Assembly: GCA_018303945.1 (NCBI GenBank)
Contig: JAGVXD010000005.1
Coordinates: forward strand, 1-54,516
Origin: Candidatus Pacearchaeota archaeon
GTDB lineage: Archaea > Nanobdellota > Nanobdellia > Pacearchaeales > GW2011-AR1
Direction: 5' to 3'
DNA length: 54,516 nt
Of the stretch, positions 26,619 to 52,166 are shown in pieces (position 1 is the stretch's first letter; each line of letters starts with the position of its first letter). The notes under the pieces were generated by a model. It ran no database searches. It was given only the letters and a program-made list of their open reading frames with translations, and was not told the DNA's origin. A program made the position numbers and the translations under genes.

Positions 26619-26752
26619 GAAATCTTGCGCGGTTTTAACTTGTTTTTCGGCAAGCGCGTACCTCGAGCGAGGAATTCGAGAACGTCGGATCCCTGCCGCA
26701 GCTTAGGCTAGCCCTGCTCGAATCCGCGCCGAACCCCGCGACTCTATCATTA
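26619..26752. ncRNA. GC-rich island, candidate structured non-coding RNA
   Basis: About 130 bp that is far richer in G+C than its surroundings and has no sensible ORF. GC-rich islands in AT-rich archaea are usually stable RNAs. Possible pairings: TCG..GCGCG with CGCGC-CGA, CTCGA/TCGAG, CGGAT/ATCCG, GCAG/CTGC. I could not fit it to tRNA (no T-loop), SRP RNA (no helix-8 motif) or RNase P. A TATA-like AATATTTAAA at about 26587 would suit plus-strand transcription, but the strand is uncertain. Confidence 0.4.
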
Positions 26753-49638: not shown

Positions 49639-50386
49639 ATGAGTTCAGAATTCAATTCAGTACAATTAAGGGAAAAATACGCAGACTTTAATGGCAAAAT
49701 AAAACAAAGGAAAAGGAGACAATCAGGAAATCAGATTTATTCTAACTGCAAACAGGCAAGGACTTACTGAAACAGGAAGATTTGCTCTAGGACTTATTAA
49801 TCCTCATTCAGACTATGTAAATGGGGCATTAAATCTTACTAAAGCGAAGGATGCGCAAGGCAAAGATGTAAATGGAGCATATGAAGCTATCTCAGGAAGT
49901 GGAGTAATTGCTGTAAAAAGAAAACTAGGAATTATAGGGGCTAGAATGACACAAGAACAAGTTTTGAATCATAAAGGCTGGAGAATGTTACTAAGACATC
50001 CTGATGAAGTTCCTAAAGAACTTGCAGAAGATTTTGAAGGAGCAAAAGAGTATATAGGCAAGGTTGTTTTCTCAAAGTATGATCAAGCAATGGGAATGTT
50101 CCCTTCAGATGGAGAAACAGTTCCAACTTTAAGGGCGTGGTTCGTTAGCAGGCTTGATGACTGCAGCAGGTCTAATGCTGGTGGCAGGTGCGGGCTTGAT
50201 AATGACAATGGTTGCTCGGTCGGTGTAGCGCCAGAGGCGCCAAACGCACTCGACACAAATGTTCAGCAAGTGAAGGCATATAGCCCTGCAGATTTAGCTA
50301 CTTTTGATAATGCTGTAAGAGGACTAGAAGGCGTTCTTAATCCTGCTTTGCTTAGACCATTTCAGCAATTGAGAAGCAAACTGTAA
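49639..50386 (+). CDS. DGR target (variable) protein gene, apparently +1 frameshifted near its 5' end
   Basis: Target of the retroelement. From ATG 49639 the frame gives MSSEFNSVQLREKYADFNGK then stops; from about 49703 the next frame is open to TAA/TAG-free 50383 with good coding character (RFILTANRQGLTETGRFALG, NHKGWRMLLRHPDEVPKELA). One extra base in an A-rich run (49701-49714, AAAACAAAGGAAAAGG) would explain it. The only in-frame ATG for the long frame is 49946 (146 aa). The variable region encodes LRAWFVSRLDDCSRSN... at residues 64-93 of that part, similar to C-type-lectin-like DGR targets, then 50 more residues follow. Confidence 0.75.
50133..50222 (+). repeat. DGR variable repeat (VR)
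   Basis: 90 bp aligned without gaps to 50601-50690. Differences at 11 positions (10, 16, 30, 31, 34, 48, 49, 52, 57, 58, 60), every one an A in the template (to G or T). The last 30 bp are identical and end in GGTTGCTCGGTCG, the GC-rich homology-initiation (IMH-like) end. Confidence 0.95.
50228..50240. promoter_or_regulatory. DNA hairpin just downstream of VR
   Basis: GCGCC-AGA-GGCGC, starting 5 bp after VR and absent after TR. In phage BPP-1 a hairpin at this position is needed for efficient retrohoming, so this is probably the same kind of element. Confidence 0.7.
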
Positions 50387-50491
50387 GTTCCTATTTACTT
50401 CTTGGAAATATACATTTTATCAGATGAATGTTTTTATAGTCTATTCTGGAAAGCATTATGTCCTAGCTAACTATGCAACAAGGATGCATAG

Positions 50492-50706
50492 GGCAGACTG
50501 GGCTACACGTCCTTTCACTAAGGCGAGAAATTGCTATAAAATACAGCCATGACAGCAATGAAATGGCAGTGAGTTTGATAAAGTGAAAGGGCTACTCTGG
50601 GGGCGTGGTACGTTAACAGGCTTGATGACAACAACAGGTCTAATGCTAATGACAGGAACAGGCTTGATAATGACAATGGTTGCTCGGTCGAATAGAATAG
50701 TCTGCC
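50492..50706 (+). ncRNA. DGR template RNA region, bounded by an 8-bp inverted repeat
   Basis: GGCAGACT (50492-50499) and AGTCTGCC (50699-50706) are exact complements enclosing the template repeat; inside, CCTTTCAC/GTGAAAGG form a further stem upstream of TR. No Avd-like ORF fits in 50387-50720, so this gap is probably non-coding template RNA. Confidence 0.6.
50601..50690 (+). repeat. DGR template repeat (TR)
   Basis: 90-bp template with 26 adenines, 11 of them changed in VR. In the VR reading frame it encodes Asn/Asp-rich codons (AAC, AAT) at the positions that vary, the usual DGR arrangement for maximum diversity. Ends 30 bp before the RT start. Confidence 0.95.
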
Positions 50707-50720
50707 GTTAGGATTTTATA

Positions 50721-52166
50721 ATGCTATACACAAAATTATGCTCTTATGAAAATCTTTTCAGCGCTTATCAAAAAGCAAGACAGGGAAAGACAAAGAAGCA
50801 TTATATTCTGACATTTGAGAAAGAGTTGGAAAAGAATCTTAATCAATTACAAATAGAGCTTATAACTCAGACTTACAAGCCAAAGCCTCTGAGAACATTT
50901 ATCATAAGGGATCCAAAAACTAGGAAAATATCAAAATCACGATTTAGGGATAGGGTTATCCATCACGCTCTAATCAATATCATAGGTTCGGATTTCAGCA
51001 AGGGTTTTATTTATGATTCTCATGCAAATCAGATAGGGAAAGGAACATTAAAGGCACTTGAAAGGTTTGATCATTTTAAGCGCAAAGCCTCAAAAAATGG
51101 AACTTGTCCTTGCTATGTGTTGAAGGCAGACATAAGACATTATTTTGAAGAAGTAAATCATAGTGTGCTAATATCAATCCTTAGAAGAAAAATAAAAGAT
51201 GAAAAAGTAATCTGGCTTGTAAAACAGATTCTATCAAATATATCTGAGAATCCATCGGGGGGGGGGGGCGAACGCCTCCAAGGCATGCCTCTTGGCAACT
51301 ACACTTCTCAATTTTTTGCCAATGTATATCTTAATGAACTTGACCAATATGTTAAGCACATCTTAAAGGCAAAATATTACATTCGCTATGTGGATGACTT
51401 TGTTATTCTTTCTCATTCAAAACAAGAGCTTGAATTATACAAAGAGAAAATTGATAGATTCTTAACAGAGATACTGCATCTCAGTTTACATTCCGACAAG
51501 TCAAAAGTGTTGATGCTTGATCAGGGTATTCCCTTTCTCGGATTTAGGATTTTTACACATAGCAGGATAATAAGAAAGGCAAATCTAAGAAAATTTCAGG
51601 GAAAATTTCGGGAATTTAAGACATTATATAAAGAAAGACAAATAAACAGAGAGCAGGTTGTGGAAAAATTAGAAGGTTGGATGGCATATGCAAGACAGGG
51701 CAATACTTACAAATACAGGAGAAAGCTACTCCAAAGATTCAACAAAGATTTTCCAATTAAGAATAAAAGTCAAATCATCCTATCTAAAAAGATAACTAAT
51801 TTTTTCAGAAAGTATTATTCAAGCAAGGTGGAGTTTAGTGTTCAGAAAACATTGTTTCTTCTCAGGAAAGGATTAAGCATAGAAGAGATAGAAAAAGAAA
51901 GATGCCTAAAGCAGGGAACTGTCTGGGAGCACGTTATAAATCTTATAGAGCATGGACAATTAGCTGTTTGGAATATCATGCCTAAAAAGAAAATTGTTTA
52001 TTTATTGCAAAGAATAAAAGATCCCGAAGAGCCTCTTAAGCAGATCAAGGAAAGAATATATGATCAAAGAATAACGTATGATGAGATTGCTTGTGTGAGA
52101 GCACATATGAAGATGAAGGAGAAAATAAAGAAAAGCAATAGCCTTAAACACGCAAAGAGTCACTAG
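50721..52166 (+). CDS. DGR-type reverse transcriptase with C-terminal helix-turn-helix (481 aa)
   Basis: Copies TR RNA into adenine-mutagenised cDNA for transfer to VR. Catalytic Asp137 in LKADIRHYF, motif 4 GMPLGNYTSQFFANVYLNEL (188-207, the DGR-type xxxGNxTSQ), and catalytic YVDD (223-226). A thumb-like region follows with LEGWMAYARQGNTYKY. The last 130 residues add an HTH_40/RecQ-tail-like segment (LRKGLSIEEIEKERCLKQGT), unusual for DGR RTs, which are commonly shorter. A run of 12 G (51257-51268) encodes Gly-rich residues 180-183 just before motif 4. Start ATG 50721. Confidence 0.92.
   Translation: MLYTKLCSYENLFSAYQKARQGKTKKHYILTFEKELEKNLNQLQIELITQTYKPKPLRTFIIRDPKTRKISKSRFRDRVIHHALINIIGSDFSKGFIYDSHANQIGKGTLKALERFDHFKRKASKNGTCPCYVLKADIRHYFEEVNHSVLISILRRKIKDEKVIWLVKQILSNISENPSGGGGERLQGMPLGNYTSQFFANVYLNELDQYVKHILKAKYYIRYVDDFVILSHSKQELELYKEKIDRFLTEILHLSLHSDKSKVLMLDQGIPFLGFRIFTHSRIIRKANLRKFQGKFREFKTLYKERQINREQVVEKLEGWMAYARQGNTYKYRRKLLQRFNKDFPIKNKSQIILSKKITNFFRKYYSSKVEFSVQKTLFLLRKGLSIEEIEKERCLKQGTVWEHVINLIEHGQLAVWNIMPKKKIVYLLQRIKDPEEPLKQIKERIYDQRITYDEIACVRAHMKMKEKIKKSNSLKHAKSH

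Follow-up and report, generated by a model that had tools for sequence, protein, structure and literature searches.

Adenine-specific transfer of sequence from a template repeat (TR) to a variable repeat (VR) marks the diversity-generating retroelement (DGR) of Bordetella phage BPP-1 and is common to that element and the archaeal one described here. The reverse transcriptase (RT) of the solved DGR ribonucleoprotein (PDB 8ub7 series), which we take to be that of BPP-1, shares its fold and motifs with the archaeal RT. DGRs of Nanoarchaeota and related archaea have been published, and they occur several per genome and with orphan targets (PMC4372165, PMC5006420). The elements of DUSEL4 Nanoarchaeota (Paul et al. 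2015, PMC4372165) and the AvpA system (Handa et al. 2016, PMC5006420) resemble the present one in residing in a reduced archaeal genome with several elements, in their orphan targets and in a VR that is internal to the target and followed by about 50 residues. A term search of the two papers returned no mention of a frameshift and no description of a repeat tract in the RT or of an RT-16 leader.

Simple-sequence repeats (SSRs) that switch genes by changing length, the so-called contingency loci of phase variation, are described for Neisseria, Campylobacter and Helicobacter (reviewed in PMC11868660), and a further study reports homopolymer switches in the mismatch-repair genes of tumours, where the switched gene is itself a mutation-rate gene (PMC11250277). 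In the literature searched, most subscription journals lying outside the search, no DGR with a phase-variable RT of its own was found. The DGR as such is of an already known kind, including in DPANN archaea; the tract in its RT is the new part.

The retroelement and its targets

The window, the whole stretch of 54,516 nucleotides analysed here, belongs to an 803.7-kb, 87% complete genome, in keeping with the tiny-genome archaeon that an earlier sequence-only reading had supposed. That reading had placed a VR at 50133-50222 and a TR at 50601-50690, both on the forward strand, and realignment returned the same coordinates and the same gap-free alignment over 90 bp. Each of the 11 differences falls on one of the 26 adenines of the TR (eight A>G and three A>T), and the remaining 64 positions carry none; the confinement to adenines that had been claimed is therefore borne out (hypergeometric p = 1.9e-7). 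The identity claimed for the last 30 bp holds as well: VR 50193-50222 matches TR 50661-50690 without a mismatch, and the same segment is conserved, bar a few adenines, in the VRs found elsewhere in the genome. Its position is that of the IMH, which would initiate homing.

Downstream on the same strand, the RT gene (50721-52166) encodes 481 residues with a Pfam RVT_1 domain (3.3e-20) and, fused to its C-terminus, a clade-specific HTH_40 domain (PF14493, 2.9e-16; 51837-52100). The GNYTSQ and YVDD motifs noticed in the letters alone are both present, the former as part of an RT motif 4, GMPLGNYTSQ (51282-51311), made of invariant alignment columns, and the latter as the catalytic site (51387-51398). 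Among PDB sequences the best match is 8ub7 (1.7e-36, against 3.3e-21 for group II), which is also the closest solved fold (E 7.7e-22, TM 0.88 on the target) to an AF2 model with a mean pLDDT of 89.6, while a group II maturase model scores 158 bits against a cut-off of 300. These sequence and fold matches, together with the sub-cut-off maturase score, uphold the DGR identity first proposed and rule out a retron or group II intron origin, which the sequence-only reading had held up as the contrary case. The nearest relatives, at 52-58% identity, come from Woesearchaeota and Nanoarchaeota metagenome-assembled genomes (MAGs), several of them with the same C-terminal extension; HTH_40 was confirmed in the three relatives tested (L281, L057 and L064), and the window RT falls within the Woesearchaeota/Nanoarchaeota clade of the RT tree.

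By comparison with the 8ub7 system, the window element has an RT with an extra HTH_40 domain, a spacing of only 30 nt between the TR and the start of the RT, a structured leader 5' of the TR and no Avd-like ORF: between the VR gene and the TR of the window, no ORF of at least 60 aa that could encode Avd or an equivalent was found. The Avd accessory is not universal in DGRs.

The description of the locus as a complete retroelement stands as far as the presence of the DGR parts is concerned; it does not stand for the target gene in cis, which is frameshifted near its start in the assembly, and three more VRs lie elsewhere. The gene (49640-50386, forward strand, translated in three frames) has its ATG at 49640 in another frame than the VR, and its body is open only from 49703 to 50386, with the VR inside this open frame and followed, beyond the conserved VR 3' end, by 54 codons. 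About 50 codons present in its paralogues are missing within 49640-49945, either because the gene has decayed or because near-identical copies collapsed in the assembly; such copies may also have produced the start and its frameshift during assembly. Small as the genome is (0.8 Mb), eight or more paralogues make up the target family (on contigs C4, C6, C8, C22, C11, C7 and C18). The family has no match in Pfam and, as a difference from the published DPANN systems, none among PDB chains, AvpA included. The AF2 model of the target is unusable (pLDDT 47), and with neither a Pfam nor a PDB match any fold assignment was dropped. Neither a signal peptide nor a membrane segment was obvious when the paralogues were inspected by eye, so that the suggestion of surface-protein diversification for host contact finds no footing in these proteins.

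One TR serves several targets. The window TR pairs with four VRs on four contigs, the one in cis (C21) and three of 90 bp in trans (C11, C18 and C7), in which 12/13, 18/20 and 18/20 of the differences lie at TR adenines. All three trans VRs are located less than 260 bp from a contig end, as is expected because near-identical gene copies break an assembly. Four diverged VRs drawn from one TR imply past activity of mutagenic retrohoming by this element, as judged from the repeats themselves. In the C7 VR (L046 7199-7283), a second copy of the 3' 30-bp IMH part lies 74 bp further downstream and the VR frame is cut short, which may reflect an aberrant homing product.

Further cassettes are present in the genome. 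Contig C17 holds a second complete DGR (L003 1574-5514) with two VRs (7/7 and 13/13 differences at adenines), whose VR gene has a vWA-like protein and an AAA_5 ATPase as neighbours, an arrangement similar to the operons of MoxR-vWA conflict systems. On C22, an RT-16 RNA, a TR and a VR with 8/8 differences at adenines accompany an RT reduced to 35 codons, and on C3 an RT-16 RNA and a TR lack a working RT. The C3 TR pairs in trans with a second VR in the window (26678-26742, reverse strand), where 13/16 differences are at TR adenines (p = 1.8e-6); with a stop codon upstream and three non-A changes, this VR looks decayed. RT-16 cassettes with no RT in the surrounding sequence were seen at C22 and C3 and at nine other loci (L191, L205, L208, L210, L212, L223, L224, L228 and L235); such apparently template-only units would depend on an RT supplied in trans.

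RT-16 RNA ahead of the template repeat

Right in its coordinates, the sequence-only reading had overlooked three components of the element: the trans targets, a G tract within the RT and a structured RNA between the VR gene and the TR. The RNA is a full-length member of the Rfam family RT-16 (RF03019; 50462-50600, forward strand; model positions 1-158), scoring 82.2 bits against a gathering score of 50, and its 3' end is the base immediately before the TR. RT-16 occurs in 65/180 genomes of the archaeon's family. Adenine-specific VRs were identified for 53/63 RT-16 loci, and in 51 of these 53 the TR starts no more than 7 nt from the RT-16 end. In a controlled test, an adenine-specific repeat was recovered in 30/31 segments anchored on RT-16 as against 0/93 random segments of the same loci, and these 93 control segments exclude a chance junction of RT-16 and TR. 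RT-16 is moreover present in 9/10 DPANN DGR loci and in 0/18 bacterial or viral ones.

Because of the TR junction, the outcome of the anchored test and the occurrence in DPANN alone among the DGR loci tested, RT-16 is to be regarded, on this comparative evidence, as the structured 5' portion of the template RNA of DGRs in these archaea. A replacement of Avd by this leader is conjecture. In the literature searched, most subscription journals again falling outside it, no function is given for RT-16, whose sole mention is as one of the families given a better structure in Rfam 15 (PMC11701678); the leader role is what the present analysis adds. At several loci of the HTH_40 type (L057, L058, L060 and L063) the RT-16 unit lies on the strand opposite the RT, so that RNA and RT must there be transcribed apart. 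A second Rfam RNA, RT-14 (RF02921), was observed directly upstream of five bacterial or viral DGR RTs (L088 4802-4945, L078 4812-4951, L084 4813-4951, L138 1978-2116 and L149 4813-4961), and this other orphan RT-x RNA probably belongs to DGR template RNAs too.

Simple-sequence tracts in the RT gene

The tract in the window RT is a run of 12 G (51257-51268, forward strand) that encodes residues 179-183 just before motif 4 (GMPLGN), and it is the only run of nine or more G or C in the 803.7-kb genome. Within the RT core, only residues 178-182 fall below a pLDDT of 50 in the AF2 model; in comparison, the 8ub7 RT has a short turn (PDEG) at the tract position. When lengths from 8 to 16 were modelled, 9, 12 and 15 yielded the full-length RT, and all others stopped at 203-215 residues, before the YVDD, which lies downstream of the tract and is absent from the product of an out-of-frame tract. 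As in SSR phase variation (PMC11868660), this is a coding repeat within an ORF whose length sets the frame; as a proposed ON/OFF switch it would here stand at ON, being in frame. The DNA that follows the tract is very often CGAACG or CGAAGC in G-tract RTs (51269-51275 in the window, and most of the others) and ACGCG after AG tracts, the RTs themselves being diverged.

A simple repeat occupies the same loop in 47/111 distinct DPANN DGR RTs, as (G)6-13, (AG) of 11-26 nt or (C)11. The RTs with a tract are distributed over frames 0, 1 and 2 as 13, 14 and 20 (34/47 out of frame) and those lacking one as 62, 0 and 2 (2/64 out), an association of tract and frame with a Fisher p of 1.5e-15, the sequences being MAG consensus in which homopolymer calls can be one base off, an error less likely for AG tracts. 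Eight short tracts are in frame and two out, as compared with five and 32 for long ones, so that the in-frame share of long tracts (5/37) falls below one third (p = 0.009). Five RTs carry G7-G12 at a second site, 52 codons after motif 4, and four of these five are out of frame. The RT sequences, 125 kb in all, contain 52 tracts, 45 of them in the first loop, and along the RT tree tract presence changes 26 times, at least 12 of these changes being forced by starred branches. By contrast, 0/109 bacterial or phage DGR RTs have a tract or frameshift at the loop. A pattern search of IMG/VR for a tract with motif 4 gave no match, and viral spread of the tract was rejected on that account.

Long AG tracts number 34 among those listed in 181 genomes of the family, 14 of them within the DGR RT loop. 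Others stand close to the N-terminal end of proteins predicted to be membrane proteins or Cys-rich exported ones (L345, L350 and L360, in G127, G051 and G157, respectively); these genes are candidates, by their sequence, for further phase-variable genes in DPANN archaea.

A proposed switch on targeted mutagenesis

From these comparisons we hold it likely that the window carries a genuine archaeal DGR whose RT is a contingency locus, that is, a phase-variable switch gating targeted mutagenesis. The basis is the anatomy of the locus, the adenine-specific differences, the position of the tract, the frame statistics, an intact and constrained downstream half and the repeated gain and loss of tracts. 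The locus would run from the VR gene through an RNA in which the RT-16 leader precedes the TR to the RT; the enzyme would make errors at adenines as it copies the TR, and the resulting cDNA would replace the VRs in a family of paralogous targets, in cis as well as in trans. The tract, G12 in the window, sits in a dispensable loop at the enzyme surface and would change length by replication slippage, giving the full-length enzyme at 9, 12 or 15 and a fragment of 203-215 residues without the YVDD active site at other lengths, and cells would thereby flip targeted hypermutation ON and OFF at random. The inferred parts of this model are the rate of slippage and its reversibility within a single lineage, the activity of the RT, the priming by RNA and the function of the target.

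Whether the out-of-frame genes are still maintained bears directly on the switch. At least 140 open codons follow the tract in 32/34 of them and YxDD is kept in 33/34; substitutions behind the tract are distributed over codon positions 1, 2 and 3 as 603, 301 and 1343, the same shape as the 1059, 537 and 2351 of in-frame RTs, and the half behind the tract is thus under the same purifying selection in both. In-frame (13) and out-of-frame (34) alleles therefore both occur with the coding potential preserved in the latter, these alleles coming from different species and no near-identical pair differing in tract length being present among the loci compared. At OFF loci, 487/520 VR-TR differences are at adenines, as are 146/149 in nine genomes in which the only RT detected is out of frame (G131, G159, G022, G143, G161, G115, G091, G162 and G081), a second, intact RT being liable to be missed in genomes 60-95% complete. 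The simplest reading of the latter figure is that the RT of these genomes was in frame not long ago and worked recently. A point against the switch is that non-A differences in the pairs of OFF loci are somewhat higher, at 1.8% as against 0.4-0.7% of sites. Weak TR-VR pairing at some tract loci (7/14 at L315, 9/13 at L311) and the existence of RT remnants, such as the 35 codons on C22, could likewise suggest that out-of-frame RTs are pseudogenes on their way out and the tracts a by-product of decay; yet the breaks are located at the tract sites, both halves stay open with YxDD and a normal codon-position bias, and VR-TR differences stay adenine-specific. The constraint behind the tract leads us to reject decay, which we find scarcely credible.

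An ordinary DGR with real tracts, in which the frame differences are sequencing or assembly errors at repeats, would draw on the error-proneness of homopolymers of ten or more on some platforms and on the availability of MAG consensus only, the window RT itself being in frame. Such errors are a very unlikely source, however, of all three frame classes among 47 tract RTs with 34 out of frame, or of the 13/15 AG tracts that are out of frame too; nor would they confine G, AG and C tracts to a single 60-bp loop in a single gene and spare 109 bacterial RTs. The deficit of in-frame long tracts is not predicted by random switching alone: either OFF is favoured because good variants are erased by an RT that is always active, or slippage expresses some of the out-of-frame genes. 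Taken to its full extent, the latter would make the tract a site of programmed frameshifting or transcription slippage, with low-level RT produced from out-of-frame genes by a slipping ribosome or RNA polymerase, and it would account for the constrained downstream half kept in these genes and for long tracts being mostly out of frame, as though in-frame reading were unneeded. Programmed ribosomal frameshifting is nonetheless one-directional, whereas both shifts occur here (14 and 20), and in-frame and tract-free RTs coexist within the same clades. AG repeats are not known to us as slippery sites. We consider this explanation improbable.

Extended to the DPANN archaea as a group, a phase-variable RT would mean that these organisms stochastically gate a targeted mutator, their DGR RTs being contingency loci in which G, AG or C tracts have been gained repeatedly in two loops of the enzyme; only a minority of cells would hypermutate variable proteins at any time, and variants would be frozen once the tract slips out of frame. 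We regard this as likely. To our knowledge, SSR phase variation is little documented in archaea. The tumour mismatch-repair switches offer a likeness in the nature of the switched gene (PMC11250277), but the gene switched here would be a targeted mutator in archaea, known from consensus sequences of different species.

An orphan Rfam RNA, RT-16, also gains a likely function, and many DPANN elements would be missed or split by DGR surveys that insist on an intact RT ORF. An open question in DGR biology is how good variants are protected in cells that carry a self-mutagenising machine. If the switch is real, slippage of the RT tract would provide a simple answer, with bursts of diversification followed by heritable silence, and phase variation and DGRs, two known classes of localized hypermutation, would be joined in one circuit.
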